Assembly (NCBI GenBank): GCA_950295325.1
Contig: OX485806.1
Location: 48,045,169 to 48,109,168 of the forward strand
Length of the DNA stretch: 64,000 nucleotides
Reading direction: 5' to 3'
From: Polytrichum commune
Taxonomy: Eukaryota > Streptophyta > Polytrichopsida > Polytrichales > Polytrichaceae
The notes beneath the pieces were generated by a model. That model was not told the origin of the DNA. It saw only the letters and a program-made list of their open reading frames with translations, and did no database searches. Shown here in pieces: positions 1 to 36,050 of this stretch. The position numbers and the translations under genes are program-made. The stretch's first letter is position 1. The number at the start of each line of letters is the position of its first letter.

Positions 1-3000
1 CTTGAATCTGATTTACGTGTGTACTGAGTTTGGGTTGTATATTGATAAGGTTGTGATTAGGCCTGAATCTGATTTAAGTGTGAAGTTGGTAAGGCTCATA
101 TAAGGCCTGAAATCAAATCTCTTAATGTTAGCTTTGTTCAAAATAGTGTGTTTCGGTCTCGAGACACCCTTGAGAAGGGTATTATGTGGGCTGACTTAAG
201 TGTGAAATCGATTGGGTTAGAAGTCGATAAGGTTGTGATTAGGCCTGAATCTGATTTAAGTGTGAAGTGAGCTTGGGTTATATGTTGCTTAGGTTGTGAT
301 TACGCTTGAATCTGATTTAAGTGTGAAGTGAGTTTGGGTTGTATGCTGCATAGGTTGTGTGTAGGCCTGAAATCTGAATTGTTCAATATAGTGTGTCTCG
401 GCCCCGAGAGACCCTAGGGAAGGTCTTAACTGGGTTGAACTATGTTTATAATCAGTTGGGTTAGGATGTTGGTAAGGTTTTTGTTAGGCCTGAAATCAAC
501 CTTAAGTGTGAATTGAGTTTCAATTTGATGTTCGTAATAATGTGATTAGGCCTAAAATCTGATTTAAGTGTGAAGTTGGTAAAGCCGATATAAGGCCTGA
601 AATCAAATTTTTGAAAGTCACATTTGTCCAAAAAAGTGTGTCTCGGTCCCGAGACACCCGAGGCAAGGGTCTTCATTGAGCTGAATTCAGTGTGAAATCA
701 ATTGGGTTAGAAGTTGATAACGTTGTGATGAGGCCTGAATCTGATTTAAGTGTGAAGTGAGCTTGGGTTATATGTAGCTTAGGTTGTGATTAGGCCTAAA
801 ATCTGATTTAAGTTTGAAGTTGGTAAAGCTGATATAAGGCTTGAAATCAAATTTTTGAAAGTCACATTTGTTCAAAATAGTGTGTCTCGGTCACGAGACA
901 CCCTAGACAAGGGTATTAAGGGGGCTGACTTATGTGTGAAATCAATTGGGTTAGAAGTTGCTTAGGTTGTGATTAGGCCTGAATCTGATTTAAGTGTGAA
1001 GTGAGTTTGGGTTATATGTTGCGTATGTTGTGATTACGCCTGAATCTCATTTATGTGTGAAGTTGGTAAGCCTCATATAAGGCCTGAAATCAAATCTCTT
1101 AAAGTTAGTTTTGTTCAAAAAAGTGTGTCTCGGTCCCGAGACACCCTAGACAAGGATATTAGGTGGGTTGAATTAAGTGTGAAATCAATTGGATTAGAAG
1201 TGGATAAGGTTGTGATTAGGCCTGAATCTCATTTAAGTGTGAAGTGAGTTTGGGTTATATGTAGCTTAGGTTGTGATTAGGCCTGAAATCTGATTTAAGT
1301 TTGAAGTTGTTAAGGCTCATATAAGGCCGGAAATCAAATATCTTAATGTTAGCTCTATTCAAAATAGTGTGTCTCGGTCCCGAGACACCCTTGAGAAAGG
1401 TATTAAGTGGGCTGACTTAAGTGTGAAATCCATTGGGTTATAAGTTGATAAGGTTGTGATTAGGCCTGGATCTGATTTAAGTGTGAAGTGAGTTTGGGTT
1501 ATATGTTTCTTATGTTGTGATTAGGCCTGAAATCTGATTTAAGTTTGAAGTTGGTAAAGCTGATATAAGGCCTGAAATCAAATTTTTGAAAGTCACATTT
1601 GTTCAAAATAGTGTGTCTCGGTCCCGAGACACCGTTGAGAAGGGTATTAAGTGGCCTGACTTAAGTGTGAAATCAATTGGGTTAGAAGTTGCTTATGTTG
1701 CGATTAGGCCTGAATCTGATTTAAGTGTGAAGTGAGTTTGGGTTATATGTTGCGTATGTTGTGATTACGCCTGAATCTCATTTATGTGTGAAGTTGGTAA
1801 GCCTCATATAAGGCCTGAAATCAAATCTCTTAAAGTTAGCTTTGTTCAAAAAAATGTGTCTCGGTCCCGAGACACCCTAGACAAGGGTATTAGGTGGGCT
1901 GAATTAAGTGTGAAATCAATTGGATTAGAAGTGGATAAGGTTGTGATTAGGCCTGAATCTGATTTATGTGTGAAGTTGGTAAGCCTCATATAAGGCCTGA
2001 AATCAAATCTCTTAAAGTTAGCTTTGTTCAAAAAAGTGTGTCTCGGTCCCAAGACACCCTAGAGAAGGGTATTAAGTGGGCTGACTTAAGTGTGAAATCG
2101 ATTGGGTTAGAAGTCGATAAGGTTGTGATTAGGCCTGAATCTGATTTAAGTGTGAAGTGAGCTTGGGATATATGTTGCTTAGGTTGTAATTAGGCTTGAA
2201 TTTGATTTAAGTGTGAAGTGAATTTGGGTTATATGTTGCATAGGTTGTGTGTAGGCCTGAAATCTGAATTGTTCATAATAGTATGTCTCGGCCCCGAGAG
2301 ACCCTAGAGAAAGTCTTCACTGGGTTGAACTATGTTTGAAATCAGTTGGGTTAGGATGTTGGTATGGTTTTTGTTAGGCCTGAAATCAACCTTAAGTGTG
2401 AATTGAGTTTGAATCTGATGTTGGTAATAATGTGATTAGGCCTAAAATCTGATTTAAGTGTGAAGTTGGTGAAGCCGATATAAGGCCTGAAATCAAATTT
2501 TTGAAAGTCACATTTGTTCAAAAAAGTGTGATCCGGTCCCGAGACACCCTAGACAGGGGTATTAAGTGGGCTGACTTAAGTGTGAAATCAATTGGGTTAG
2601 AAGTTGATAACGTTGTGATGAGGCCTGAATCTGATTTAAGTGTGAAGTAGGCTTGGGTTATATGTAGCTTAGGTTGTGATTAGGCCTAAAATCTGATTTA
2701 AGTTTGAAGTTGGTAAAGCTGATATAAGGCCTGAAATCAAATTTTTGAAAGTCACATTTGTTCAAAATAGTGTGTCTCGGTCCCGAGACACCCTAGACAA
2801 GGGTGTCTCGTTGGCTGAATTATGTGTGAAATCAGTTGGGTTAGGATGTTGGTAATGTTTTAGTTAGGCCAGAAATCAACCTTAAGTGTGAAGTGAATTT
2901 GAATTGGATGTTGGTTATAATGTGCTTAGAGTTGAAATCTGAAATTTCATTGTTGGTTAAATGATTATTGGATTGTAATTAGGCCTGAAATTTGATTTGA

Positions 3001-3120
3001 GTGTGAATTTAGTTTATATACCAAGATGTTGATTACGCCAAAACATATTATTTGACTTTGAATTTAGTTTGGGTTGGTTGTTGGGAAGGATGTGATTAGG
3101 CCTGACATCAAAATTGGAAA
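1..3120. repeat. Palindrome-bearing satellite array 1a (~244-bp units)
   Basis: About twelve degenerate tandem units fill this stretch. Each carries blocks such as GATTAGGCCTGAATCTGATT and AAGTGTGAAATCAATTGGG and one dyad, GTGTCTCGGTCCCGAGACAC (9-bp arms, 2-nt centre). Dyads start near 638, 882, 1125, 1369, 1613, 1856, 2038 and 2772, mostly 243-246 bp apart with one 182-bp step. Degenerate versions lie near 150, 393, 2284 and 2528. Higher-order repeats are visible: the block at 1053-1247 recurs at 1784 (offset about 731, three units) and the block near 361 recurs near 2251. The last ~200 bp fade into diverged sequence. An exon with a clean acceptor follows at 3144, so the array probably lies in an intron of copy A. 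Confidence 0.93.
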
Positions 3121-3143
3121 ATTAAGCATTGGATTTTCCGCAG

Positions 3144-3230
3144 AGTTTGGGAGCTACCGATCTTGAAACTTACGTTTCAAATGCTATTGAAGGCATCATG
3201 GACCATGATGAGCAGAATATTGGGGAAGAG
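3144..3230 (+). CDS. Copy A, first visible exon (29 codons)
   Basis: The exon is bounded by TTTTCCGCAG and GTAAGTACTC and open in phase 0. It encodes an acidic stretch beginning SLGATDLETYVSNAIEG and ending NIGEE, which reads directly into the exon at 3321. It is too short for a homology call. Its value is positional: it puts satellite array 1a upstream within the transcription unit rather than outside it. Confidence 0.6.
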
Positions 3231-6200
3231 GTAAGTACTCACGTAGTTACATAATGTGTGAATTAGTTGTACCTTATGCCATGCAGCTTTGTGTCTTAAA
3301 TACATACCTGTGTTTTGTAGGTCGAGTGCCCCACCCCCCAGGACTCACCGGCAGCGACTCAAGCTTCAAGAGAGACTGCAATTGATCTTGACAGTTCTGA
3401 TGAAGGTCAGGATGAGGATGAAGATGGGCTTGGAGATAAGGATACGTTTGACGGGGATGAAGATGAACTTAGATCCCGTCAAAAATTGAATTCCGTGGCC
3501 ATGATCTCTCAATTGAGAGTCAAACCTTTCAGTTCATCGAGGTTCAATATTCCTTTATGTAGAATGCTTGCCATGCCTATGGTGAGGCCAACACTCTCAA
3601 CTGATCTTGATAAATTAGAGCAGGAGTTTGTCCATGGGTATAGAGAGGGCTCCTCAGTTTTTTATGTGACATTAACAGATGAAGAAGGCAAAACACAGGA
3701 GGTGTCTGAAGCTGATAAGGCATCCTGGGGTCCCATTTGGAATTCAAAAAATGAAGAATTTAATTTCTATCTTCAGTCTATTCCGGAGTTAGCCGGTTTC
3801 AAGGATTTGATGTTCTTTGTATGTGATGGTAACCATAGGCGTCAGGCATGGTTAAATCATATTGAAAGACTTCACAAAACAGATGAGGCCTGGCATTATA
3901 TGGTGGATAGCATCCTACTTGACACAAAAGGCAAAGTTGGGGTTGTTATGCAAGTGATGCATAACATCAACAAGTAAGTTTTGTTAATTAATTTATATTT
4001 CTTTCTATGTAAAATACTTCTTGTTATACCATTAATGTCATGTGCTAATCCACCCTTTTTTATTGATAATTGCAGGCATACTGAAGACTCTCACGTCAAG
4101 ACCAACTTTGTTCACACCCTTTTTAGGATTCAAAAGTATGGTCTTATGCCAATCGAACATTATCAAGACATATTGGCTCCATCAGAGATGAAGAGGTGCA
4201 AGAGAACTCAAAATGCCAAAAAAACTTGGTACACATTGAATCTTTAAGTATTCACGAACTTCATCTTCCGGGTATGATCTCTATAATATGTACTGCATTG
4301 TTTTAATCACTAACATATTGTCATTATCTAAAATCAAATGATCACATAGGTTACAGTATACTTGGATGACTAACTAAGTCTACCCCTGTGCAGCATGAAC
4401 TTGGACTTGCTGCAGATGAGGGTGTTCGACAACTTGTGGAGCAATCAGATGTAGAAGTGTCCGCCGCTGAAAAAGCAACCGCTATGAAAGTTGCTACAAA
4501 GAAAAGAGCCAAGGCACTTCATAAGAAAATGTCGAAACTAGTTGCTCTGGCAAACCCGGACTTGACGGATGGATGGCTTCGAGAGGTATAAACTCTACTT
4601 TACAAGCACATTTTTCAATCTTCATGTTCTTTAATGACCCCTGAGATTCTAATAAATAGCTATATGTTTCACAGATTGGACGTCACTATAGTCTTAACTC
4701 AATTACACCCGAGCTCAATATGGAGAAATTGCAGTTGATCGTTACTGCAAAAACATCGGCCGCTTCTAAGGTTAAATGGTTGGAATATTTAAACTCCTCT
4801 GCATCTACACGTGAGGCCCGCAAACTGCCCCCTAAGCCCACCAACGAGGAGAAACTGGGTGCATTTCTAGCTAAGGCGTGCTTTTGGGCCGGAGTGAGTT
4901 AATACTTCCCAATCAATTCGTTTAATATGTTTGTCTTGAGGCCTGAAAACTGTTTGGGTTATATGTTGCTTAGGTTGTGATTAGGCCTAAAATCAAACTT
5001 CTGACATTAAGATTTGGTCAACAAGGGTCTTAAGTGGGCTAAACTAAATGTGAAATCAATTGGGATAGATGTTGCTATGGTTGTGATTAGGCTTGCATCT
5101 GATCTAAGTGTGAACTGAGTTTGGGATATTTGTTGCTTAGCTTGTGATGATGCCCGACAGTTGATTTCAGTGTGAAGTGAGTGATGGATAGACTTTGGTA
5201 AGCTTGTGAATAGGCTTGAATCTGATGTGAGTGTGAAATTTAAGTGTCAAGTTGTAAAGGTGTTTAGTAGGCCTGAAATCAAATTTCTGAGAGTAAGATT
5301 TGGTCAATAATGTGTGTCTCAGTCTTGGACCCTAGACAAGGGTCTTAAGTGGACTGAAGTAAGTGTGAAATCAATTGGGTTAGATGTTGCTATGGTTGTG
5401 ATTAGGCTTGAATTTGTTTTAAGTATCAAGTGAGTTTGGGATATATGTTGATAAGGTTGTGATTAGGCCTGAAATCTGATTTAAGTGTCAAGTGTGTTTG
5501 GGTTATATGTTGCTTAGGTTGTGATTAAGCCTGAAATCTGATTTAAGTGTGAAGTTGGTAAAGCCGATATAAGGCCTGAAATCAAATTTTTGAAAGTCAC
5601 ATTTGTTCAAAATAGTGTGTCTCGGTCCCGAGACACCCTAGACAAGGGTATTAAGTGGGCTGAATTAAGTGTGAAATCAATTGGGTTAGAAGTTGATAAG
5701 GTTGTGATTAGGCCTGAATCTGATTTAAATGTGAAGTTAATTTGGGTTATATGTTTCTTAGGTTGTGATTAGGCCTGAAATCTGATTTAAGGGTCAAGTG
5801 AGTTTGGGTTATATGTTGCTTAGGTTGTGATTAGGCCTGAAATCTGATTTAAGTTTGATGTTGTTAAGGCTGACATAAGGCCTGAAATCAAATTTCTGGA
5901 AATCATCTTTGTTCAAAAAAGTGTGTTTCGGTCCCGAGACACCCTAGACAAGGGTCTTATGTGGGCTGAATTAAGTGTGAAGTGATTTCAAATTAGAAGT
6001 TGATAAGGTTGTGATTAGGCCTGAATATGATATAAGTGTGAAGTGAGGTTGGGTTATATGTTGCTTAGGTTGTGTTTAGGCCTGAAATTTGAATTGTTCA
6101 AAATAGTGTGTGTCAGTCCCGAGACACCCTGGACAAGGTCTTAACTGGGCTAAATTATGTGTGAAATCAATTAGGGTAGGATGTTGGTAAGGTCTTTGTT

Positions 6201-9200
6201 AGGCCTGAAATCAACCTTAAGTGTGAAGTGAGTTTGAATTGGATGTTGTTAATAATGTCATTAGGCCTGAAATCTGATTTAAGTGTGAAGTTGGAAACGC
6301 TGATATAAGGCCTGAAATCAAATTTCCTAAAGTTAGGTCTGTTCAAAAAAGTGTGTCTCGGTCCCGAGACACTCTAGAGAAGGGTATTAAGTGGGTTGAC
6401 TTAAGTGTGAAATCAATTGGGTTAGAAGTTGATAAGGTTGTGATTAGGCCTGAAATCTGATTTAAGTGTCAAGTGTGTTTGGGTTATATGTTGCTTAGGT
6501 TGTGATTAGGCCTGAAATCTGGTTTAAGTGTCAAGTTGTTAAGGATGCTATAAGACCTGAAATCAAATTTTTGAAAGTCACATTTGTTCAAAATAGTATG
6601 TCTCGGTCCCAAGACACCCTAGACAAGCGTATTAAGTGGGTTGACTTCGGTGTGAAATCAATTGGGTTAGAAGTTGATAAGGTTGTGATTATGCCTGAAT
6701 CTGATTTAAGTGTCAAGTGCGTTTGGGTTATATGTTTCTTAGGTTGTGATTAGGCCTGAAATCTGATTTAAGTGTCAAGTGCGTTTGGGTTATATGTTGC
6801 TTAGGTTGTGATTAGGCCTGAAATCTGAACTAAGTTTGAAGTTGTTAAGGCTGACATAAGGCTTGAAATCAAATTTCTGGAAGTCAGCTTTGTTCAAAAA
6901 AGTGTGTCTCGGTCCTGAGACACCCTAGACAAGGGTCTTATGTGGGCTGAATTAAGTGTGAAATCAATTGGATTAGAAGTGGATAAGGTTGTGATTAGGC
7001 CTGAATCTGATTTAAGTGTGAAGTGAGTTTGGGTTATATGTAGCTTAGGTTGTGATTAGGCCTGAAATCTGATTTAAGTTTGAAGTTGTTAAGGCTCATA
7101 TAAGGCCTGAAATCAAATCTCTTAATGTTAGCTTTATTCAAAATAGTGTGTCTTGGTCCCGAGACACCCTTGAGAAGGTTATTAAGTGGGCTGACTTAAG
7201 TGTGAAATCAATTGGGTTATAAGTTGATAAGGTTGTGATTAGGCCTGAATCTGATTTAAGTGTGAAGTGAGTTTGGGTTATATGTTTCTTAGGTTGTGAT
7301 TAGGCCTGAAATCATATTTAAGTTTAAAGTTGTTAAGGCTCATATAAAGCCTGAAATCAAATCTCTTAATGTTAGTTTTATTCAAAATAGTGTGTCTCGG
7401 TCCCGAGACCCCCTTGAGAAGGGTATTAAGTGGGCTGAATTAAGTGTGAAATCAATTGGGTTATAAGTTGATAAGGTTGTGATTAGGCCTGGATCTGATT
7501 TAAGTGTGAAGTGAGTTTGGGTTATATGTTTCTTAGGTTGTGATTAGGCCTGAAATTTGAATCGTTCAAAATATTGTATCTCGGTCCCAAGACACCCTGG
7601 ACAAGGTCTTAACTGGGCTGAATTATGTGTGAAATTTGTTAGGGTAGGATGTTAGTAAGGTATTTGTTAGGCCTGAAATCAACCTTAAGTGTGAAGTGAG
7701 TTTGAATTGGATGTTGGTAATAATGTCGTTAGGCCTGATTTAAGTGTGAAGTTGGAAACGCTGATATAAGGCCTGAAATCAAATTTCCGAAAATTAGGTT
7801 TGTTCAAAAAAGTGTGTCTCGCTCCCTAGACACCCTAGACAAGGGTATTAAGTGGGCTGACTTAAGTGTGAAATCAATTGGGTTATAAGTTGATAAGGTT
7901 GTGATTAGGCCTGAATCTGATTTAAGTGTGAAGTGAGTTTGGGTTATATGTTTCTTAGGTTGTGATTAGGCCTGAAATCATATTTGATTTTGAATTTAGT
8001 TCAGGCTAAATGTTACTCAGGTTGTGATTAGGCCTCAGCTGAATTGTGCATATGCGCTTATTTGAATTCGGGGAGCTTCTATTATATTTTCTTTCCACAG
8101 ATATCCGAGCAGGCTTCTATTATCTATGAAGAAACAGTGCGTCAAGATAGACTGGTTATCAACTTTGAAGTACCCAGCGAGCCCTTATCCTTGGTTGCAT
8201 ACATCGAGGATTGTAGAATGAAGTTATGGGACAATGCATTCCCCACCTTCTTTCGAGGGCAAGATGCTTTTAACAAAACTCACGAATTTGAGGGCTTCAA
8301 AGGAACTGACTTGATTGTGAGAAGAGTACTATTTCGGTAAGATTTATCCTTCTCCAACTAGAATTCTTGTATTTGTCATATTGATTTGGTTGTTCACATG
8401 GCATGTATTTTGATTGCAAGGTATATAACGATGAGGTTTTTTTTAACCCGCAGGTTTTTCAAGTACGAGCTCCTTGCAAAAGGAGCAATAACAAAAGAAG
8501 ATCTCCCAATATTTCTCTCTACATGGCTTGACAGGTCGAACTCAACGTGCATGTTCTCAGCAAATCAGCAGCGGACGTGGTCTACCTCGCATCTCACAGG
8601 AGGTGGATGGTACCTCGACTGTGCTCCTAGTTTCACTCCCTCCTTTGAAACTGAACTTAGGAAGTCGAGGGATGCAGTTGGTGAGTCTTGTGTTGAGATG
8701 GTTGATTTACAGGGCATTGAAGACGAGCACGAGAGGGCAAAGGCCCTCTCGCGACGTCTAGAAGAAGATAGGAAGAAAGCGCTTAAGGTGAAGGAAGCTG
8801 AGGAGAAAGCGGCCCAGAAAGAGATGGCAAAACTCCACAACTCTCTGGAGAAGACTAACAAGAGGGGGAAAAAGAAGATGAACCCCCCTCCAGAGCCAGA
8901 ATGTAAGAGCCCACCTGCGCCTAGTCCTACATATGACTCTGGTTCTCATGCTCCAATTCAGTCTAGAGGAACCAAACGCGATTCCTCCTATGAGCAATTA
9001 AGCCAAGGAATCCCTGTTTTCACATCGGTTGAGGAGAATGATGGCCAAGTTGGGGAGTGGATTAAAAACTTCTCACTAGAGCAAGTCCTTGGTGGCGACA
9101 CGGGCAGCTTGAGTCCATTATATGACGAGTTAAAGAGCTTCATTTCTAAGGTACCATACTGCTCAACAGCTTTGCTTTGTTTATGTTTTCATTCAATTCT

Positions 9201-11006: not shown

Positions 11007-11430
11007 GTAGAATTTTGTGTCTTATTGCTTGTATAATAATATATTTTTGCATTTGATTGTTAATTGTCCGTTTAGTGCGGTAATCTTCATGGTTTTCCTT
11101 AGACAGTGAATTATATTTTGTAATGCCTTCTTACACTCTTACCCTACACCCTCCTTGCACTCTATTATTCAATAAGACATAGAGGTAAAAATTCAATGCA
11201 TCATCCATGTAAAAAAATTCAAAACAAAACCCAAAAAACATAAAGAAATGTAGTTGTAAAAATATAGATCAAAACATGAAACAAAGACTAAGGAAAACTA
11301 AACCGAAAAACTAAACCAAAAAATTAAAGATGATAAGTATAAAATATCAATACATTTTTTAGAATTACAAAAAATAAGAAGATAGACTGGAAGAAGAATG
11401 GAATAACCCAAAAAAGGCTTGTGCATAAAA
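11007..11430. other. AT-rich intergenic spacer after copy A
   Basis: The stretch is A/T-rich with oligo-A runs and AATAA-like strings, and presumably includes the 3' UTR of copy A. I see no repeat unit or coding signal. Confidence 0.4.
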
Positions 11431-11434
11431 TATG

Positions 11435-12235
11435 GACAACATCCTATGTTTTTGGTTCAAATCAAACATCAAACCCCAAGAAATCCGAGGCCATATCCAA
11501 AGTGGCCACTCCCACATGAAATCTGAACCACTTGGCATGCCGAAACTCAACCTGAAACCAATGATTTCATGTCAAATTTATGGAGTCAGGTTGAATGTAG
11601 CTAAGCATGAAACCCAAACATGGCATGCCCACATTCAACCGGAAACCATAAACTTTAATTCACCCTAAACATAAAACCCCTAGGCCTTGTCCAAAGTGGC
11701 CATGCCGAGACCGAACATGAAATCTAAGCCATTGGGCATGTCGAGACCCAAATTGATACCAATGATTCGATTTCAAATTTATGGAGTCAAGTTGAATGTA
11801 GCTAGACATGAAACCCAAACATGGCATGCCTACATTCCATTTGAAATCATAAACTTGACCTCAAATCAAACAGCAAACCCCAAGGCCAACAGACCTCGGA
11901 TCCGAGACCTTCTGCAAAGTAGCCCCTCCACTTGAAATGCCGAAACCCACCCAGAAACCACCAACTTTATACACAATCAGAATTTAGGGGCTCAAGCCAT
12001 GAGGCCTCGGGTCCGAGGCCTTCTCCCAGTGGGACTTCATCCACCTCAAATGACAACTTGTAACCATCCGAGACCCATTCCCAACCTACAAACCTTATGC
12101 CCAATCTGAAATGATACCGCAACCATGAGGCCTCGGATCCGAGGCCTTCTCCCAGTGGGACTTAATCGACCTCAAATGACATCCTGTAACCATCCGAAAG
12201 CCATTCCCAACCTACAAACCTTATAAGAGAAGGTG
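11435..12235. repeat. Palindrome-bearing array 2 between copies A and B
   Basis: Two diverged ~230-bp units (about 11440-11670 and 11680-11900) share ATGAAACCCAAACATGGCAT and AATTTATGGAGTCA. Two shorter units follow, 126 bp apart, whose dyads begin near 12001 and 12127. Each of those has AGGCCTCGG-NN-CCGAGGCCT (centre GT, then AT) followed by TCTCCCAGTGGGACTT. A further core, CTCGGATCCGAG, sits at 11895-11906. The array occupies the intergenic space between the stop of copy A and the first exon of copy B, and may include the promoter of copy B. Confidence 0.85.
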
Positions 12236-12415
12236 CAAGCAAATACAGTATAGGTTCATCAACCACGGTTATAGGTTCTTTTTGTCAATAAATATTTCAA
12301 AAGTTAGCTCTACACCGCGGTCATAGGGCATGTTTCACCACACAAAATTTCAATATTCTAGAAAACTCACCGCTCACCGCTCGCAAAATAGTTTTTCCCC
12401 CCTGAGGAGACTGAG

Positions 12416-12927
12416 TTGTTGATTCGGAGATCGCAAAAAGAAGACTCAAATGCTCTAATTCATCGGGTTCGCATGAGACCGATTGCTAAGTCATGTTTCT
12501 CTATTCCATTGTGCCGCTTAGAATGTCTTCCTCTTGTTCGACCCATTAGCGAGGTTGATGTTTCTCGGTTGGAAAATGAGTTCGTTATGGGTTACCATGA
12601 CGGTGATCGTGCCATGTATGTTTCTGCCTACAACAACCTTGATGAGGTGCTTCAGGTTTCCGATGACATTTGGGCCTCTTGGAGTTCATATTGGCAGGAG
12701 GCCAATGATGAGTTTGATTCAATGCTCCAAAATGACTTTGACCTCTCTCACCTTGTTGGCAAGATGTTCTTTGTGTGGGAGGGAAATCATCGATTGACGG
12801 CTTGGTTTAGGCACATTAACAAGCACCATTCCATGGACAAAGATTGGCACATTTCAGTCGATTACATTCTTGTGGACCCCAGAAACTGCACCGCCGTCTT
12901 CCTTAATGCGATGAATGATATCAACTG
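12416..12927 (+). CDS. Copy B, ParB/Srx-like domain exon
   Basis: The exon encodes IPLCRLECLPLVRPISEVD, then RLENEFVMGYHDG and FFVWEGNHRLTAWFRHI, aligned block by block with copy A. GNHR with flanking hydrophobic strand and the acidic residue before it match the ParB/sulfiredoxin-like box. The 3' donor splits a Trp codon (TG|G) before STEHDHVK. Reading is clean over about 170 residues, so this exon is the better-preserved version of the domain. An in-frame internal Met lies just before RPIAKS, but I cannot tell whether it is the true start. Confidence 0.66.
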
Positions 12928-15900
12928 GTAAGTTTGTTATATTTTCGGTTTTACTTGGTTGCTTTGTGTTTTGGATATTTTTCTCATTTGGTTCTTCTTC
13001 TTTTTGTAGGTCCACAGAGCATGATCATGTCAAGGACAACCTTCCCGCGAAGTTACTCCGCATTCGTACATTCGGGAAGATGAAACTTGAGGAGTTCAAG
13101 GACCTCATCTCCCCCGCCGACTACAAGTTGTGCGAGTCCAAGATGGAGAAACATCCTACTTGGTATCCCCTTACCTTGGACGTCTTCGTCAAATTCCTAT
13201 ATAAGGTAACCCTTCCTTCCTTTGTGCGTGTGTATTTTTCTTCTAGTTTTCTGGCAGTCACTTACACTCATTATTTTGAGTTGTGGAGAGAGCTATCTAG
13301 CGCAGCCGACAATGCAGCAAGGATGTACCGGGAGGCTACACCTGAGTCGCTCAGGTCCGCTCCCGAAATTTGTGATACTATGAATAAAACCCAAGACAAA
13401 CTCATCAAAAGTATTCGGTCTCAAAATTTCGAGAAGTTTATTTCCGTTGCCCATAAAGATAATGGCGAAGCTTTCTTCTCCGAGGTCCGCCTCTTATCTT
13501 TCTTTCTTTGTTTCTCTTTCATTCAAAATTCAAATTATACTTGTTGTATATTTCCTAGCTCTCGCATCCAAATTTCAGAACTCTCCAAAGTATAAGTTCA
13601 TGTATAGCTCTATGATCCGAGAGCTTAGATCTTGACCTCATTTCAGAATGCTTGATTGGATAGGTTTGACGGTATCCCTCGGCCCATTTCACAATGATTG
13701 TATATGTATGTTCAGGGTAGCTCTGTATCAAAATTCAGAATGCTTGAATGTCCAGATTACAGGTAGCTCTCGGATCCGAGAGCTACCTCGATTTTCAAAA
13801 TTGGATGTATATATATTTTCAGTTGTAGCTCTTGGCCCACATCAGAAGGCTATACTGGGTAGGTTCAGGTGTGGCTCTCGGCCCATATCAGAATGCTAAA
13901 ATGTGTAGGTTCAGGGGTGGCTCTCGGCCAATATCAAATTTAATGTATCTGTAGGTTCAGGGTAGCTATATATCAAAATTTAGAATTTTTGAATATGTAG
14001 ATTTCAAAAGGCTAGGCAGTGTAGGTTAAGTGTAGTTATGTATCAAAATTCAGGATGCTTAAAAGTTTAGATTAAAGGTAGCTCTCGGATCCGAGAGCTA
14101 CCTCAATTTTCCGAATTGGATGGATGGGTAAATTATGGTGTAGCTCTCGGATCCGAGAGCTTACCTCTCAGCCCATTTCAGCATGCTTGAATGTGTAGAC
14201 TCAGGGGTGGCACTAGGCTATTTCAGAATGCAAGAATGTGTGTTTCAGGGGTGGCTCTCGGCCAATATAAGATTTAATGCATATGTAGGTTCAAGGTAGC
14301 TATATATCAAAATTGAAATTTTTTGAAAGTGTAGATTAAAGGTAGCTCTCGGATCCGAGAGCTACCTGAATGTTCAGAAATGGATGGAAGTGTAAATTCT
14401 GGTGTAGCTCTCGACCCATTTCAGAATGCTAGATTGAGTAGGTTCAGGGGTAGCTCTCGGCCCATTTCAGAAGGCTCTATTGTGTAGGTTCAGTGGTGGT
14501 TCTCGGCCTATGTCAAAATGCTAAAATGTGTAGGTTCAGGGGTGGCTCTGGGCCCATATAAGAATGAATGTATATGTAGGTTCAGGGTAGCTATATATCA
14601 AAATTCAAAATTTTTGAATTTGTAGATATCAGGTAGCTCTCGGATCCGAGAGCTACCTCAATTTTAAGAAATAAATGTATATTTATTTTCAGTTGTAGCT
14701 CTAGCCCATTTCAGAAGGGTAGAATGTGTAGGTTCAGGGGTGGCTCTCGGCCCATATCAGAATGAATGTATATGTGGGATAAGGGTAGCTATATATCAAA
14801 ATTTAGAATTTTTGAATGTGTAAATATCAGGTAGCTCTCGGCCCATTTCAAAATGCTAGATTGTATAGGTTCAAGGTAGTTATTTTTCAAAATTCAGAAT
14901 GCTTTAAGGTGTAGATTACAAGTAGCTCTCGGATCCGAGAGCTTCCTCAATTTTCAGAAATAAATGTATATATATTTTCAGTTGTAGCTCTATGCCATTT
15001 CAGAAGGCTAGAGTGTGTAGATTGAGGGGTGGCTCTAGGCCATTTCAGAAGGCTATAATGTGTAGGTTCAGGGGTGGCTCTCGGCTAACGTTAGATTCAA
15101 TGTATATGTAGGTTCAAGGTAGCTATATATCAAAATTTTAAATGTTTGAATTTTTAAAAATCAGGTAGCTCTCGGATCCGAGAGCTACCTCAAGTTTTCA
15201 GAAATGGTTAGATGTGTAAATTATCGTGTAGCTCTCGGATCCGAGAGCTTAGCTCTTGGCCCATTTCAGAAGGCTAGGCAGTGTAGGTTCAGGTGTGGCT
15301 CTCGGCCTATTTCAGAATGCCAGAATGTGTAGGTTCAGGGGTGGCTCTCGGCCCATATCAGAATGAATGTATATGTGGGATAAGGGTAGCTATATATCAA
15401 AATTTAGAATTTTTGAATGTGTAAATATCAGGTAGCTCTCGGCCCATTTCAGAATGCTAGATTGTGTAGGTTTAGGGTAGTTATTTTTCAAAATTCAGAA
15501 TGCTTTAAGGTGTAGATTACAAGTAGCTCTCGGATCCGAGAGCTTCCTCAATTTTCAGAAATAAATGTATATATATTTTCAGTTGTAGCTCTATGCCCAT
15601 TTCAGAAGGTTGGAATGTGTGAATTCAGGGTTAGCTCTAGGCCATTTCAGAATGCTACAATGTCTAGATTCAAGGGTGGATCTAGGCCATTTCAGAATGC
15701 TACAATGTGTAGGTTCAGGGGTGGCTCTCAGCCAACATCATATTTAATGTATATGTAGGTTTAGGGTAGCTATATATCAAAATTCAAAATGTTTGAATTT
15801 GTAAAAATCGGGTAGCTCTCGGATCCGAGAGCTACCTCAATTTTTCAGAAATGGATGGATGTGCAAATTCTAGTGTAGCTCTCGGCCCATTTCAGAGGGT

Positions 15901-18900
15901 AGAATGTGTATGTTCAGGTGTGGCTCTAGGCCCATTTCAGAAGGCTAAGGAGTGTAGGTTCAGGTGTGGCTATTGGATCCGTGAGGCTGGCTATCGGCCT
16001 AGTCTTTGGTTATGCCTTCCTATTCAATATCCTCTTTTTGTCTGTTTTCTTACACCGTCATGTTTTGCAGATTGATGTGTAGCCACAAGGGAATCAGAGT
16101 GCCAGAAGGAAGCAGATCAAGGAGCAGGATGCCAATGAAGAACAGTGTGCAGAGAAGGATTGAGAGCGGCCAAGGACCGGAGCACCGAGGGGCCAGCAAT
16201 CGACAAGGGAGCGCGAAGGGAAGCCAACGATCGAGGAAGAGAGGACAGATGGCAAGAAGGCCTTGAAGACCGGATGAGGACCGGCCACCGGTTATGTAAC
16301 GCACCGGGAACGAGGGGAACGCCCGGGAACGAAGGAGCCGGCGGGAACGTACCCGGGAGCCTCCATAAGAATGCTGGGAACGCGGGAACGTATCGGGCAC
16401 AAGGAGCTTCATCGAGGGAACGCCCGGGAACGAGAAGGCATACCGGGAGCACACCGGGAACGCCACCATAGTTCCGAGAACGGACAAGTTAGTGAGATAG
16501 GATAGTTAGTAGTCTAGTAAACACCTAAGCAAGGGTAGATGAAAGACATGCCTAAAAGGATGAAAGTCCTTTTTAGATGAACATAAACTATTCCCTTTAA
16601 ATGAATAGTTGCATTCCGGATGAAGGAGGCCCATGGATGATAACTGAACCACGAGGCACATCTAGGTTAAGCCAAGAAATCCAACGAATGAACTTCACAA
16701 GTACATTTTACATTCGGACATTATAACTGCTGTAAATAGATCCGGGCAGCCTAAAATTAGACTGTAACCGGATACAGGGATAAAATTAGCCTGAAATGAA
16801 CATGTGGCATTAGGGGAAGTTAGGACTAACCGCCACATCTAATTAAAGATAGATTTTGAACACTATATAAGAGGCCAAACTTAAGGCACCTAATACACTT
16901 CATTTGAACACACAAACTCTACATGAGTGTCGGAGCCTCTAGCACTCTCTCAAGCTAGTACATTTAGCCGAGGTTTTCGTGCCCTAACTCGGAGGGCAAT
17001 CGAGCTAGCATCGCAATTAGCCGAGGCATTCGAGCCCTAACTCGGAGGGCATTGGAATATTAATGCGAGTAGCCGAGGCATACTTAAGCCCTAACTCGGA
17101 GGGCATTGGAGACAATCATGCACGAAGATAGCTAGCCGAGGCAAATACATACCCTAACTCGGAGGGCATTCTAAAGTGTTAAAATATTTAGCCGAGGTTC
17201 TCAAATCCTAACTCGGAGGATATTAGCACATGTTACTACACTAAGGCAAATTGGTCAAAGCTTCGGATTAAGTTTGCTCCGGTAACTAAGACCTTTGACG
17301 AAGGAGAATTTCGAGCCGAAGGGCCCGAAGGGAAATAATTACAGAGAGGAGGAAATCTCATTCGGCGGTACACTCGAGTTAATCCCCGACCTCAAGCCGG
17401 CCAAGTAAGATAAATTATTACAGTAAAAGCACAAGTCACTCATATTTGAGGAAGGTAAGTTGTGGGCTTACCGGCTTACCATCACGTCATACCGGGTATG
17501 ACTAGATACTAAATTATTACGCGGTGCCAAATCCAATTCAAAGGGAATTAGCCTAAGGGGATTTCAAAGCATCTAAGGGGAACACTTGGGGAAATTTAGG
17601 CCATGAGTTTAATACCTCATAAATGAGGGTGATAGTAATCAAACATCTTTAAGTGGAAATCGGTTTACCATATACATTAGAATCAACAAGGATTCTAATC
17701 CCTCAAATATTCTCAAGTGAATTTGGAATGTTGAAGGACCAAGGATACCATCAGAACAATATAATCAAGGTTAAAGAGGCAAGATGATTCTCAAGATTTT
17801 CATAATGTTAAAGAATATGTTTTGAACTAGAAACTCTTTATGAAGACATTCTCGGAATATTCTTAGAAAGTAATGAAGATTAGATGCATTCGAACCATGA
17901 AAGATATTGTTTGCAACATTTAGAGTTTCCCTTGAAACACTTAACCTCGACATTAGGATTTCGGGGAACATAATCTCGAAAACCTAAGGCACTTTCTCCT
18001 TGGAGATTTATAAAAAGGGATCTTCAAATACAACATTCCGGAATTGAAGAAATAAGATTATCTTGCAAGATCTTTCAAACCATGAAAGATGCAAGAGCGA
18101 ATAGATGATTAAGAACTAAGGAAAGTAGTTTCTTAGAGAGCACTTTAATATTAGATTTCGGGGAACATAAACTTGTATCCTCAGGTCAACGATTCCAAGA
18201 GGATTTCAAAAGCGATAAATTAAAAATCACAAGAATTAGTCAACAAAGAGTTAACGGACACCTTCACAAGTTTTGGAAACTAAGAGAATCTAATTTTGGT
18301 GGGAGTAACTTCCATGTAAACCGGTCAGCAGCGGGTTACACCGTCTAAGTTTGCTGAGGGTTTGAAGGTGACCTCGACAATTGACCGTCATTATTCCAGC
18401 TTCATCATCACAGATATGATGATAGAAAAACTCCAAAAGGTGGCAACCACCCATGTCGATGCCTCTTTCAAAGCCAAGTGGCTTCAGTGGTGGAATTCTT
18501 CCACCGACGTCAAAATCAAAAACCAATTCCCCTCTGTTCTTCCTCTCCGTGAGAAAGTCCTTGACGACTGGCTAAACAAAGCTTCTTTCTGGGCATAGGT
18601 ATATCTTCAAGAATTGTTTCTTTAGTTTGTTTCTTTTATTATTTGGCATTTCTAACTATTGTTCTCTCTTAACATAGTTGGAGAAGGGGGTTGAGGCCGA
18701 AATTGCATCGTTTGAAAACGAGTGTTCCGTTGACATGGATTGGATTTCTGCGGAGATTTTGCAACCGTCCAATTATGTTGAGCATTGGAGGCTCATTTTG
18801 TGGGACAAAGCTTTCCGTGTGTATTTTGACGACAAAGGCGAATTGAAATTTGTTAAAGGCCTTGACCTCACGGAGTTTGAGGAAGGTCCGATAGCAATCA

Positions 18901-21110
18901 AACGCGTCGCTTACCGGTAATTGTTGAAGTTAAATTTTTGTACATTTCCGTTTCATTCCTTTTTTGTTTCCATATTCTTATTTGATGTTCTTCATTTTCC
19001 AAATACATTCATCGTGAGCTCGTTGTGAAGAATGTTTTGCCTCCTTCTTCATTACATGCTTTCCTCTTTGATTGGGTCGATGTCGACTCCAATTTCTGTG
19101 TCTATACTACCATGCAAGTTGCAAAGTTTCCACACGTGCACTTGGAAGCTGGTGGTTGGTACTTGGATTGCTCCCGTGGATTTGTGCCCGATGAGGAAGA
19201 ATCCCTTTACAGCAGCCTAGTAAGCTCTGCGCCTGAAATGATTGAATTGGAGGAAGAGCCGGAAGAGCATATGCCCGCTCCTCAATCCATTGAGAAGGAT
19301 GTTGCGCCCGTCAAAGGTAAGGGCAAGGGTAGGAAACTTGTCCCCCTTGCCTCTTCTCAAGTTTCTACTCGGTCTTTCACAAAGGCCTTAGTTCAATGCA
19401 TTGTTGCTCCAGCGACCACCGTTGTTGGAAGTCCAAGCGCCACTCCTTCTGCCCCCCACCCCAATCCTCCTCATGTTCCTTCTCATAGCGGCGCAACCAT
19501 CCCATCCGTACCTCGCAAGAGGACGGCAGTTGCACCGGATACATCAGCAACTTCCTCGAAGAGGTCAACTAGCCTTTCTTTGATTGAGAATGTGGACATG
19601 GTAGAGCTCATTGAAGATCTCATGAAGACGAAGGTTCCTCCTCCCGCCTACCGCCGCATACAAGATTTCCTAACCAAGGTTTGTATGTCGTTTTTTTGTT
19701 TTGTCTTTCATTCATTGTAATTTGACATTTGTTTTGTTTCTTGACTTTCTTTGCAATTTTTCCTTTCAGGTTGGAACGGGCCGTACTCGTCCCAACACCA
19801 AGCCTAAGGCTCATACGGGCATTGATCTTCTCTTCGCAGATGTGCCCGAGAACCTCCGTGTGCTGGACATCTCGTCCTCATCCTCCGATATTCCTCAATG
19901 GAATAAGAGGTCTTCCACTTACTTTGAGGTTTTGTTTGCCTTTGCAACTGCCAATATCCATAATGATGGAGTCATCGTCTTTGCACACGCAGTGGATCCT
20001 GATGTCTCTAGAAAGATTCACAACTGGGCACACACGGAGGATTTTTATGTTACCGAAGATTGGTTTGGAATGAATGACCTCGACCTTCAATCGCCTACTA
20101 ATCCTAGAGAATTGGTAATTCAATTTCGCCTTCATTTTTTGTGATTTTTAGTTATTTCTTTATTTTGTTTTTTCTTTAATGAACCGATCATTCATCTTGC
20201 AGACTCGCAAGTTCTTTATCAAAGTACTTGTGCGCAACGTATCGGTTTTGAATGTCCGGACTTCAGACTTCGAGGATATGGGTTATAATTTCAAACGAGA
20301 TGGTTGGCTCAATAGCTTCACGGATGTGAAGAACCAATCCATAAGGGATGACGGGGTGCCTTGAAGAGGAGCTCGTGAAAAACGTCCCGAGTACTTCTCC
20401 ATCATTTTCTCCGCCCTCACGGACAAGGACGACATTATATTTGATTGGCAATGTGGCGTTGGTTCGATCTTAACCTTCCTTGTTTTTCCTGCCCTTGTTT
20501 TGTTATGTTTTAACTTATTTCATATTTTGTTTATCTCATGTGTATTTTCTTATCCTCACCTATTGGCATTGTCTTGTTCTAGGAGGTTTCATCATTGCAT
20601 GTCGCTCCATTCAACGCCATATTGTGGCGCTTGACTCGGATGTTGATGTTTTCAAGTCCATCATCCTTCCCATTCGTGAGCCTGAGCAAGAACACACCTC
20701 TCAACACGCCGCCCCTCGACGAGGCTCAGTATTTGCTCCTCCTCCCCGGAAGATGGCCAAGCGCAATTTCGATTTGCTCTGTGAGTAAGTTCGTTCTTGT
20801 ATTCTACCTTTTTTCCATTTTCATCTTTTCGTCTAGGACATTTCGACTTTAGCTCATTTGTTTATCTTCCTTCATATGTAGAGTTCAAAATGATAGCTCC
20901 ATCCGCGTTCTTAATGCGGACATGTTCTCTACGCCTTCGACTACGTTTGAGCTTCCTTCCTATGCTGCTCAGCTTGCCAATCTCTTGGCGGAAACACCCT
21001 CCCTGCCTCCTAGTCGCACTCGCCCCTTTAACAAACTAGTATTGGATTTCCTAGACATAGAGGCCGAGCAGGGTGAAGATAGTGATAGACATGCTAGTCC
21101 ACATTCTTGA
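12416..21110 (+). CDS. ParB-like / DNA-methyltransferase fusion gene, copy B (probably decaying)
   Basis: Exons: about 12416-12927, 13010-13205, 13281-13484, about 18350-18597, 18678-18916, about 19018-19678, 19770-20114, 20203-20461, 20583-20784 and 20882-21110. The protein parallels copy A: ParB/Srx-like domain with GNHR, helical middle, GGWYLDC, low-complexity linker, motif IV-like strand (DLLFADVPEN), PREK-like block, motif I position (IFDWQCGVG), IVALDSD and ELPSYAAQLAN near the C terminus. Most intron positions and phases match copy A, showing tandem duplication. Two or more apparent breaks and one weak acceptor suggest decay. The start is uncertain: no ATG precedes the first conserved block, so an upstream exon may be missing or the exon may begin at a splice acceptor near 12416. 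One intron is expanded to almost 4.9 kb by array 3 and another insertion. Confidence 0.72.
13010..13484 (+). CDS. Copy B, helical middle exons
   Basis: Exon 13010-13205 begins with the split Trp and STEHDHVKDN and ends LDVFVKFLYK before GTAACC. Exon 13281-13484 encodes LWRELSSAADNAARMY and a helical, charged stretch ending GEAFFSE before a GTCCGC donor. Both are clean and phase 0/2 compatible. The second corresponds to the Lys/Ala-rich exon of copy A but shares little sequence with it, so this part evolves fast. Confidence 0.55.
13580..15995. repeat. Palindrome-bearing array 3 inside an intron of copy B
   Basis: Degenerate ~45-50-bp subunits (GTAGGTTCAGGGGTGGCTCT, TTTCAGAATGCTAGA) are interspersed with perfect dyads whose 20-bp centre is AGCTCTCGGATCCGAGAGCT. 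Full 28-bp palindromes start at 13761, 14076, 14340, 14631 and 15163; a 26-bp one starts at 15811; 20-bp ones start at 14142, 14924, 15230 and 15525. Half-sites reading GCTCTCGGCCCATTTC lie between them. A higher-order repeat of about 600 bp is visible (about 14740-15010 against 15340-15610). Copy A has only an 89-bp intron at the corresponding place. Confidence 0.94.
15996..18330. other. Non-satellite insertion in the same intron of copy B
   Basis: After the last decayed dyad the base composition changes. About 16270-16480 is GC-rich with some eight copies of GGGAACG. About 16500-16960 is AT-richer with a TATA-like CACTATATAAGAGG near 16861. About 16960-17230 holds five ~60-bp repeats (separate entry), and 17230-18330 is AT-rich with no coding signal. 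It resembles a terminal repeat or fragment of a retroelement, but I found no domain or clear ends, so the class is not assigned. Confidence 0.45.
16960..17230. repeat. Five ~60-bp tandem repeats with CCGAG...CTCGG arms
   Basis: Each unit contains TAGCCGAGG, a variable stretch of about 12-17 bases, then CCCTAACTCGGAGGGCATT. CCGAG and CTCGG form an inverted pair within every unit, and GCCCT/AGGGC gives a second short stem. The repeats are clear by eye at about 16972, 17020, 17071, 17134 and 17191. Confidence 0.8.
18350..18916 (+). CDS. Copy B, RHYS and LWDKAF exons
   Basis: Exon about 18350-18597 resumes after the large intron with DRHYSSFIITDMM, IEKLQKVATTH and KAKWLQWWNSS, ending ASFWA. Exon 18678-18916 begins LEKGVEAEIASFENE, contains ILWDKAFRVYF and ends with a split Arg codon, matching copy A. 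The intron between them is about 80 bp. In copy A the intron at this place is 3.2 kb and contains array 1b. Confidence 0.58.
19018..19678 (+). CDS. Copy B, GGWYLDC exon and Pro/Ser/Thr-rich linker
   Basis: The exon encodes ELVVKNVLPPSSLHAFLFDW, LEAGGWYLDCSRGFVP, an acidic patch (ELEEEPEEH), a basic patch (KGKGKGRKL) and a long Pro/Ser/Ala/Thr linker, ending helically (MVELIEDLMKTKV) before the donor at 19679. The basic patch may be a nuclear localisation or DNA-contact segment. The 5' boundary is uncertain because no strong AG acceptor is visible where copy A's exon begins. Confidence 0.55.
19770..21110 (+). CDS. Copy B, methyltransferase-like exons and C terminus
   Basis: Exon 19770-20114 carries IDLLFADVPENL (motif IV position), HNDGVIVFAHA and EDWFGMNDLDLQSPTNP. 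Exon 20203-20461 carries the target-recognition-like variable part and the PREK-type block followed by DDIIFDWQCGVG (motif I position). Exon 20583-20784 carries GGFIIACRSIQRHIVALDSD (motif II-like acidic end), a basic linker (RKMAKRNFD) and a split codon. Exon 20882-21110 carries FELPSYAAQLANLLAET and an acidic tail. The layout is that of beta-class enzymes, but both catalytic signatures differ from consensus. The frame is not intact throughout. Confidence 0.6.
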
Positions 21111-21349
21111 CTACGCCTTGTTATGATGACACATTTTCCATCCCATATGTATTGTCTTTTTTCAATTCCTTTTAATATTATTTGTTGAATTTCCATTCAC
21201 CTTTTGCAAACCCCTGTCAACTTCTTATTCATCTTATGTTGGTGTTGAATTCTATTTTCTGAAAATGTTTGGGCTCACGGCTATACTCTTTGGTGGTTGA
21301 GTTGAAATGTTTCAAATTTGTGTGTTGGACCATGAATATATAGTGTAGA

Positions 21350-21640
21350 GGGTTCGGCCACAAATTTTGTTTCGCTAAGTGGTTTCGGTTGGACAAGTTC
21401 GATCTCAAGTTAAGGGGTTGGATCTCAAGCTTAGGGGGTTGGAGGTTTGGGGTTCGGTTTAATCACAAAAGTTTTGGTTGGCTAAGTGGTTTCGGTTGGA
21501 CAAGTTCAATCTCAAGTTAAGGGGTTGGATCTCAAGTTTAGGGTGTTGGGGGTTGGGGGTTCGGTATATTTACAAAACAATTGTTTGGGTAAGTTGTGTC
21601 GGTTGGACGGGTTGGATCTCAAGTTAAGGGGTTGGGGTAG
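21350..21640. repeat. ~103-bp tandem repeat, 2.7 copies, downstream of copy B
   Basis: Units start near 21351, 21452 and 21559 with GGTTCGG, followed by GGTTTCGGTTGGACAAGTTC and CTCAAGTTAAGGGGTTGGAT. There is no CTCGG-NN-CCGAG dyad. The preceding 21111-21350 and following 21640-22020 contain no gene or repeat I can recognise, apart from a run of 13 C near 21936-21948. Confidence 0.75.
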
Positions 21641-22029
21641 GCATTAGATTTTTGCATGTGGCATTATAGTCATCATCCCATAGATTGCATCCCGATCATA
21701 ATATTTATTCTTAGCTATGATCCCCCAATCAAGCGGGGATTCACCTCATTAATATAGTGCAATCGGGACAAATATCATCCCAATGATGGTCAAATCCCCC
21801 AAGCCCTTTTCACATTCATATACTTCCAAGCCTATGCGCTACATATCTAATGTTGGTGGGTGGCAAGTGTTTGTTGGGAAGCTCTCTTCGGCCATTGAAG
21901 AAGGTTGGATGTTATATCTTGAAGGTTCGGCCCCTCCCCCCCCCCCCCTACATTTGCATGTTGTTTTTTATTTCCCAATGTGCCTACACTAAGGGCTGTG
22001 ATCGGAAATGCTAGTTGGATCCTGTGGGT

Positions 22030-22390
22030 AGGCTAAGGTCTTGGATCCGAGACCTTAGAGAATTCGGCCATTGAACTAGGTTATGAAGTTTTTTGGGTGA
22101 AACTTGTGGGTGGGTAAGGTCTCGGATCCGAGACCTTACCCGATTCGGCCACTGGGCCAGGTTGTGAAGTATTTTGGGTGAATCCTGTGGGTGGGTAAGG
22201 TCTCGGATCTGAGACCTTGGAGGATTCGGCCATTGGACCAGGTTGTGAAGTGTTTTGGGTGAGTCCTGTGGGTGGGTAAGGTCTCGGATCCAAGACCTTA
22301 GAGGATTCGGCCATTAGACCAGGTTGTGAATTTTTTTGGATGAATCATGATTGTAGGTAAGGTCTCGGATCCGAGACCTTAGAGGTTGAA
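22030..22390. repeat. Palindrome-bearing array 4: five units of exactly 81 bp
   Basis: Dyads centred on GTCTCGGATCCGAGAC have their AAGGTC arm starting at 22035, 22116, 22197, 22278 and 22359, exactly 81 bp apart. The second is a perfect 30-bp palindrome (22112-22141) and the fifth is perfect over 22 bp. The others each have one mismatch. The rest of the unit reads GATTCGGCCATTGGACCAGG and TTTTGGGTGAATCCTGTGGG. Because 81 is a multiple of three, the - strand shows an open 27-residue repeat, which I regard as incidental. Confidence 0.95.
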
Positions 22391-35645: not shown

Positions 35646-36050
35646 TTAAGAATCCCAGTAAAGAAACACCCTTAAAGATGGATTTGTGTCCGTTAGATCC
35701 AGGCCATTTATTAGTGCAGAAAGGAAATCGTAGTACAGATGGATGAAGGCCGTTAGATCCAAGCCCCTTGTGGATGCCAATAAAGAAATCCCAGTAAAGA
35801 TGGATCCACGTTTAGATCCAGGCCCTTTATGAGTGTCGGTATAGAAAGATGGAGCCAATTTGTTAGATCCAAGCCCTTTATTAGTTCCAATAAAGAAATC
35901 CCAACGAAAGATGGATAGAGACCTATAGATCCAGGCCACTTATGGATGCCAATGAAGAAAATCTAATAAAGATAGATCCAGGCCGCTAGATCCAGGCCTT
36001 TTATGCATGCTAGTAAATAATATTGCAATAAAGATGGACCCGTGAGTTGT
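35646..36050. repeat. ~60-bp minisatellite, about six degenerate copies
   Basis: The unit contains GTTAGATCCAGGCCCTTTAT, then AATAAAGAAATCCCAGTAAA and GATGGATCC. Copies begin near 35690, 35751, 35812, 35862, 35926 and 35980 with many substitutions. There is no dyad and no long reading frame. Confidence 0.85.

Follow-up and report, generated by a model that had tools for sequence, protein, structure and literature searches.

In this study, we analysed a stretch of 64,000 nucleotides from Polytrichum commune (assembly GCA_950295325.1, contig OX485806.1, positions 48,045,169 to 48,109,168; the window), in which several tandem arrays occupy the first 24.4 kb. Four of these, arrays 1 to 4, carry one palindromic dyad with the core CTCGG-NN-CCGAG, which has changed less than the repeat units around it. 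The dyads lie in introns of, between or downstream of two homologous genes, A and B, which both have glutamate in place of the catalytic tyrosine of DNA methylases. The presence of one conserved palindrome in four unrelated arrays in and around two methyltransferase-like genes suggests, as far as sequence goes, the landing site of a DNA-binding protein. We tentatively propose, while holding it somewhat short of probable, that the dyad is the binding site of a dimeric sequence-specific protein, most likely the product of genes A and B, which would act like VANC on VANDAL elements. Even under more ordinary readings, the window clearly exemplifies a short, strongly constrained site within intronic repeats that change fast.

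The dyad core and its arrays

We found 26 exact core sites in the window, all between positions 397 and 22375 (11 in array 1, 3 in array 2, 10 in array 3 and 2 in array 4), and none in the 39.6 kb from 24361 to 64000. Dinucleotide shuffles of the window (n = 100) contained a mean of 0.01 sites, with the core absent or present at most once per shuffle, and the claim of the original prediction that four arrays share this core thus held against the shuffled control within the window. With up to two core mismatches allowed, the counts rose to 23, 3, 11 and 5, respectively, where 22 of the 23 sites of array 1 are clear members and the site at 5324 is degenerate; eleven more window sites of this kind lie outside the arrays, none with four paired bases adjoining the core. 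Of the spacers, 26 of the 31 CTCGG...CCGAG pairs at most 40 bases apart in 1–24.4 kb have a spacer of exactly 2, and CTCGG is the commonest pentamer forming a 2-base-spaced pair there (26; next 7). CTCGG-NN-CCGAG is also the sole gapped 5+NN+5 word common to all four arrays, while none of 200 dinucleotide shuffles yielded any such common word. Without a gap, the four arrays have no word of 8, 9 or 10 bases in common, and the exon stretches of genes A and B contain no exact dyad.

The units themselves are unrelated, as had been predicted: with the dyads masked, blastn at an expect value (E) of 0.1 gave no similarity among arrays 1, 2, 3 and 4. The only matches were between the two parts of array 1 (1a and 1b), between array 2 and its own upstream repeat and, weakly, between array 1 and a dyad-free array 5. 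What the original prediction called satellites are, as far as the window goes, arrays within the introns and flanking DNA of a pair of methylase-like genes, a setting that it missed (Table 1). The introns that carry arrays differ between the two genes. The 3207-bp array intron of gene A corresponds to an intron of about 80 bp in gene B (18599–18677), and the acceptor of the 2.6-kb array intron of gene B corresponds to the acceptor of an 89-bp intron of gene A (4586–4674), the donor side being without a match. The arrays would therefore have arisen or spread separately in each gene, yet with the same core.

Array 3 additionally contains two broken full-type copies at its two edges, 13610 and 15972, and 25 half-site units of the CTCGGCCC type, chosen by eye from a list, whose left arm is mostly GTAGCT or GTGGCT and resembles the dyad arm. 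Array 5 (22408–24360) has no dyads and a single CpG in 1953 bases, and its weak similarity to array 1 amounts to 63% over about 140 bp (E 0.007 and 0.019). Just downstream of gene B, a 107-bp tandem repeat of 2.5 copies (21365–21635) is likewise free of dyads. A relation to Helitron 3' ends, suggested by the CCTAG that frequently follows the dyads of array 1, was set aside because the other families are without CCTAG.

Table 1. Arrays, gene pieces and the insertion in gene B, in window coordinates.
Feature	Position	Strand	Description
Array 1a	1..3143	+	244-bp units with 61-bp subunits; gene A intron ending at acceptor ttttccgcag, donor before window start
Array 1a dyads			12 of type GTGTCTCGG-TC-CCGAGACAC, 8 exact in core
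Gene A 5' exons	3144-3230, 3321-3973, 4076-4228, 4394-4585, 4675-4893	+	N-terminal region, GNHR motif; tblastn relation to gene B pieces
Array 1b	4894..8100	+	gene A intron (GT-AG, 3207 bp) with 11 dyad-like sites, of which 3 are exact
Gene A 3' exons	8101..11006	+	N6_N4_Mtase-like domain with DLPEG (motif IV) near 9595 and VLDCSTTTG (motif I) near 10290
Array 2	11880..12240	+	unit of 126 bp, located between the two genes; dyads at 11895, 12006, 12132
Gene B 5' exons	12392..13484	+	40% identical to gene A over GNHR exon
Array 3	13485..16070	+	gene B intron (gt...ttgcag); 10 exact dyads AGCTCTCGG-AT-CCGAGAGCT
Solo long terminal repeat (LTR)-like element	16076-18379	+	2304 bp, TG...CA, inside gene B exon; 5-bp ATTGA duplication 16071-16075, 18380-18384
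Gene B 3' exons	18385..21110	+	methylase-like domain, DVPEN and FDWQCGVG
Array 4	22019..22385	+	4.5 copies of an 81-bp unit, situated downstream of gene B, with 5 dyads AGGTCTCGG-AT-CCGAGACCT, 2 core-exact

Constraint on the dyad and change in its arms

To compare the dyads with their surroundings, each was aligned with the flanks of its own unit and changed cells were counted, the copies being located by their cores, which biases the sample toward intact ones. The degenerate array 1 site at 5324 and the array 3 edge copy at 15972 were excluded from the divergence, arm, covariation and CpG counts, the latter being included in the comparison of full and half sites. In array 3 (11 copies), 2 of 231 dyad cells were changed vs 214 of 936 flank cells, and in its 10 interior copies 0 of 210 vs 179 of 856. 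The corresponding counts were 4 of 120 vs 47 of 279 in array 4 and 24 of 440 vs 285 of 2618 in array 1. Fisher tests of dyad against flanks gave 2.5e-20 for array 3, 7e-5 for array 4 and 3e-4 for array 1, values that are too small because the cells share ancestry and are not independent. A separate analysis of array 1 agreed with these counts, dyad columns being 0.04–0.08 divergent and flanks 0.10–0.12.

A profile of the right flank alone in array 3 gave 8 strong matches (32.8–44.0 bits; next 16.6), each adjoining a perfect dyad; it was built from these same 8 flanks, and the exact dyads at 14146 and 15234, which have other flanks, stand outside this check. The left-flank profile gave 11 strong matches, comprising 8 perfect dyads, 2 half-sites and 1 place with neither. 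CTCGG was kept in 12 of the 25 half-site units of array 3 compared to 10 of 12 full dyads (Fisher 0.07). At the right end of the 21-bp consensus in this array, the last column shows 0 changes and the column beyond it 4 of 10, and this immediate jump in divergence does not resemble the gradient of gene conversion.

The dyads also retain CpGs within DNA that loses them. Outside the dyads, CpG observed/expected ratios are 0.28 in array 1a, 0.18 in 1b, 0.29 in array 3, 0.36 in array 2 and 0.46 in array 4, with 0.57 in 24.4–64 kb, and masking the dyads removes 25 of 44 CpGs from array 1a, 14 of 26 from 1b and 21 of 44 from array 3 (60 of 114 in total). In the array 3 dyad with its two CpGs, CpG transitions were found in 0 of 44 cells, the 2 other changes both residing in the edge copy. 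In array 4, 3 of the 4 dyad changes are CpG transitions, and in the array 1 dyad CpG positions changed in 7 of 88 cells (6 transitions) vs 17 of 352 cells at other positions, indicating that part of the copies in these two arrays decays like methylated CpGs. The persistence of CpGs in the dyads fits either selection on the dyads or their protection. The counts in arrays 3, 4 and 1, together with the retained CpGs, support the earlier proposal that the dyad is maintained and not the sequence around it.

The outer arms are complementary in each of the four families (GTGT/ACAC in array 1, AGGC/GCCT in array 2, AGCT/AGCT in array 3 and AGGT/ACCT in array 4), in accordance with the original prediction except for the imperfect array 2 copy at 11895 (AGAC/ACCT). 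The predicted palindrome lengths of 28 bp in array 3 (13761–13788) and 30 bp in array 4 (22112–22141) are reached, but only in 5 of 10 exact copies and 1 of 5 copies, respectively. Arrays 2, 3 and 4, around gene B, have an AT centre (one GT) and AG- arms; the gene A arrays have mostly GTGT arms and a TC or CC centre.

Among 41 dyads (24 distinct), 90.3% of cells pair and 22 cells show changes on both sides, a number that none of 500 shuffles reached (8.7 there); the counts refer to sequences and not to events and effectively represent four families. With the partner slid by 1–3 columns, at most 3 both-side-changed cells were obtained. Two of the five covariation measures were not unusual, namely the number of both-side-changed pairs (4; 104 of 500 shuffles as high) and of further pair types (8; 494 of 500). 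Within array 1 (22 copies, 15 distinct), compensated changes were found in 0 of 135 cells, pairing was no better than shuffled (88.1 vs 88.5%) and 16 cells were broken vs 6 with G-U. The compensated arm change that had been predicted is therefore a difference between families, while inside array 1 a site either stays or breaks. This pattern fits a protein site and counts against selection for pairing as such. Of the three options named in the prediction, RNA hairpin and cruciform would predict compensation within families, and with its absence in array 1 the dimeric protein site fits best.

Genes A and B

Genes A and B are tandem paralogs on the + strand, found by reading coding frames. They are 40% identical over the exon with the GNHR motif and 33–34% over the C-terminal region, and in tblastn the pieces of each gene match at the corresponding places of the other. 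Exon ends of gene A were set by eye, with the frame not joined between exons 4076–4228 and 4394–4585, and all seven checked introns of this gene are GT-AG.

The C-terminal region of gene A matches Pfam PF01555 (N6_N4_Mtase; E 1.1e-8, 35.8 bits, cut-off 26.7), phage methylase families in PHROGs (best E 5.8e-7) and two structures of DpnA, 5hfj and 5hek, at an E of about 6e-9. At E 1, this domain matched 367 phage records, and the 15 matches listed are annotated methylases with 23.0–27.5% identity. Gene B gave no Pfam match at E 1, weak methylase matches in PHROGs (E 0.02 and 0.05) and, as its best NCBIfam match, a tRNA methylase (E 0.006, far below the family cut-off), so that its tie to methylases runs mainly through gene A. 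In the alignment of motif IV, four phage methylases have DLPYG or DPPYG, gene A has DLPEG and gene B DVPEN. The catalytic (D/S/N)xPY of beta-class methylases is thus absent in both genes, with the tyrosine replaced by glutamate. At the SAM-binding motif I, all four phage methylases show GSG, gene A shows TTG and gene B GVG; both genes keep the D that precedes it. Since the exchange of tyrosine for glutamate is common to both diverged paralogs, it most likely took place before their split. We infer that the methylase fold may have been kept for DNA recognition without catalysis.

For the N-terminal exon, a ParB-like relation was considered because of its GNHR motif, but no support for it was found: the gene pieces gave no ParB match in Pfam or PHROGs at E 1 and no related PDB sequence, and an AlphaFold2 model of the exon from two sequences was unusable (mean predicted local distance difference test score, pLDDT, 37.6). 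Searches with the N-terminal exons at E 1, that of gene B in phages and that of gene A in plasmids, gave no match. In IMG/VR, queried with two alignments and one protein, no relatives of genes A and B were found, and there were 0 exact matches to the array 3 dyad AGCTCTCGGATCCGAGAGCT.

Both genes are damaged in the window. Near 10145 the reading frame of gene A changes, and the acceptor by which gene B enters that exon has no AG counterpart in gene A. Gene B contains an in-frame TAG at 18596–18598, at the end of the exon starting at 18385, a TGA at 20362 and the inserted LTR-like element. This element carries five repeats of about 53 bp (16965–17220) in which CCGAG and CTCGG stand divergently, TAGCCGAGG...CCCTAACTCGGAGGGC; the occurrence of the same pentamers in the opposite arrangement is perhaps chance.

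Further downstream, the window contains a degenerate Copia element at 26564–28207 (RVT_2, E 8.5e-27 and 5.2e-11), a hAT C-terminal dimerisation region at 31111–31593 (E 4.4e-5), an imperfect 61-bp tandem repeat of 3.2 copies at 35656–35847 and a reverse transcriptase fragment of non-LTR type on the minus strand at 44207–44740 (RVT_1, E 2.6e-11). A 404-aa open frame at 45766–46977, with no Pfam match above cut-off and retroelement gag-like by eye only, lies in a locally GC-rich region (46001–48000, 58%).

Possible readers of the dyad and known systems

We propose a model in which a dimer would bind the two half-cores of the dyad. The binder would be the product of the gene family described here, a beta-class N6/N4 methylase-like protein whose catalytic tyrosine was lost before the genes split, and it would coat the motif arrays in the non-coding DNA of its own gene, keeping it active or unmethylated. 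All exact sites lie in introns and spacers of this gene family, and the arm and centre variants differ by gene, which makes the family the best candidate for the binder; different variants at gene A and gene B would be expected if each paralog has its own.

Several points weigh against this model, in addition to the shared ancestry of the aligned cells. We infer that a protein binds the dyad, that genes A and B encode this protein and what its binding would bring about. The link between dyad and genes comes from one locus, at which both gene copies are damaged, so that neither may make the protein, and array 2, located between the genes, could belong to either. In gene B both motif I glycines persist, so that it may have retained cofactor binding. 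Regarding the constraint, the dyads of array 1 surpass their flanks in conservation only about twofold, the rate of CpG change in array 1 does not suggest protection from methylation there, and the difference in survival between full and half sites is not significant on its own. The outer arms are complementary well beyond the need of a 12-bp site, which also fits the birth of the palindrome by inverted duplication. Finally, no transposase or element ends that would mark the gene pair as part of a mobile element were identified: Pfam searches with the pieces of genes A and B and nine other open reading frames gave no Mutator-like element (MULE) transposase, the only transposase trace being the hAT fragment at 31 kb, and no terminal inverted repeats were present among the 25 longest of 99 pairs in 8060–26000, the left side extending beyond the window.

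A host factor of transcription, chromatin or recombination, unrelated to genes A and B, whose sites accumulate like CENP-B boxes, seems to us unlikely, though it is a serious contender. Divergence of dyad and flanks, flank profiles and CpG retention all fit it as well, and unrelated satellites with a common box are known, as in the six Meloidogyne satellites of 32–64% identity that have two motifs in common according to the part of the account at hand (PMC3694981). The distribution of the sites speaks against such a general factor, since each of the 26 exact sites belongs to the 22.4 kb around the gene pair and 0 lie in the other 39.6 kb, and the CENP-B box pattern NTTCGNNNNANNCGGGN has no exact match on either strand of the window.

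We regard as rather improbable a structural origin without any binder, by inverted duplication of a half-site and perfection of the arms through hairpin-templated correction or cruciform-linked recombination. It would agree with the half-site units of array 3, whose left arm resembles that of the dyad, with the arm covariation between families and with the strong folding of four example arms of 20–30 bp as single-stranded DNA (z -3.4 to -6.8). However, it leaves the same five inner bases in four unrelated arrays unexplained (0 of 200 shuffles), and mismatches in array 1 persist uncorrected, none of them compensated. The solitary half-cores in array 4 belong to broken dyads, and the array 2 stretch holds three lone CCGAG and no lone CTCGG.

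Plain common descent, in which an ancestral dyad repeat was duplicated, its flanks were replaced by satellite turnover and the dyad is now functionless, is a still weaker candidate with little probability. Families 2, 3 and 4 are indeed separated from AGGT by single compensated pairs (AGGC, AGCT) and have the AT centre in common, one GT aside. The flanks, however, are unrecognisable between arrays and about 20% diverged inside array 3, where the dyad has hardly changed despite its two CpGs; descent is compatible with this constraint but does not explain it. An RNA hairpin in the transcript with an intronic, splicing or small-RNA function is very improbable, because the intronic position of most copies on the transcribed strand and the compensated differences between families are outweighed by the location of array 4 downstream of gene B and of array 2 between the genes, by the lack of compensation and the excess of broken over G-U cells in array 1, by AT-centred palindromes that are identical on both strands and by a search of the window against Rfam that gave no match at gathering thresholds.

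Returning to the binding of the dyad by the product of genes A and B, a wider claim can be formulated, which we consider possible but doubtful: that these genes belong to a self-targeting eukaryotic family of dead N6/N4-methylase-like readers of palindromes in their own introns and spacers, in which variants of protein and palindrome would co-evolve between paralogs, perhaps serving a selfish element as a shield against silencing. In a literature survey by title and abstract opening, we recognised among the matches listed no description of the dyad or of plant PF01555 genes with motif arrays. If the claim is true, a bacterial-type methylase fold would have become, in a eukaryote, a protein that only reads DNA and has motif arrays of its own. 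Arrays keeping only the binding site would then be a natural record of co-change between protein and site, and the short palindrome would offer a sequence-specific tool for steering chromatin.

Known systems resemble parts of this arrangement. TNPA, a protein encoded by CACTA/En-Spm elements, binds a short subterminal motif present in many copies, some of which form inverted pairs; in contrast, arrays 1 and 3 lie within introns and extend over kilobases. Concerning the protein, the bdelloid N4CMT is a eukaryotic methylase of family PF01555 whose motifs stand in permuted order, and it resembles gene A in matching this family but keeps a catalytic SPPY where DLPE and DVPE are found here (PMC8885841), and in the land plant Marchantia, MpDN4MT1a/b make N4-methylcytosine (PMC8566409). 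As far as the consulted portions of these two accounts go, no palindrome arrays are described for either (PMC8885841; PMC8566409). Satellites with a CENP-B box likewise combine a short conserved box with otherwise dissimilar sequences, judging from the same partial account as above (PMC3694981), whereas here the box is palindromic and the arrays are intragenic or adjoin genes.

The closest likeness is to the anti-silencing system of VANC and VANDAL in Arabidopsis, which refers to the arrangement of motifs and not to VANC protein sequence, and membership in VANDAL is not claimed. In the sections available to us, VANC21 is located at the 9-base motif YAGTATTAY in the introns, spacers and ends of VANDAL21 (PMC5735166), and the targets of VANC6 have other motifs, also in tandem repeats, that change rapidly (PMC5735166; PMC10398659). 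The VANC21 motif is non-palindromic, and VANC is not called methylase-like in the part of the source consulted (PMC5735166), while gene A is PF01555-like. Common to both systems, as far as these excerpts show, is a short motif in tandem arrays within introns, spacers or terminal non-coding DNA of the genes concerned (PMC5735166; PMC10398659). Arrays and motifs vary there between related elements, and here two genes go with two arm and centre variants. If our proposal is true, the window would document a second, unrelated invention of VANC-like self-targeting.

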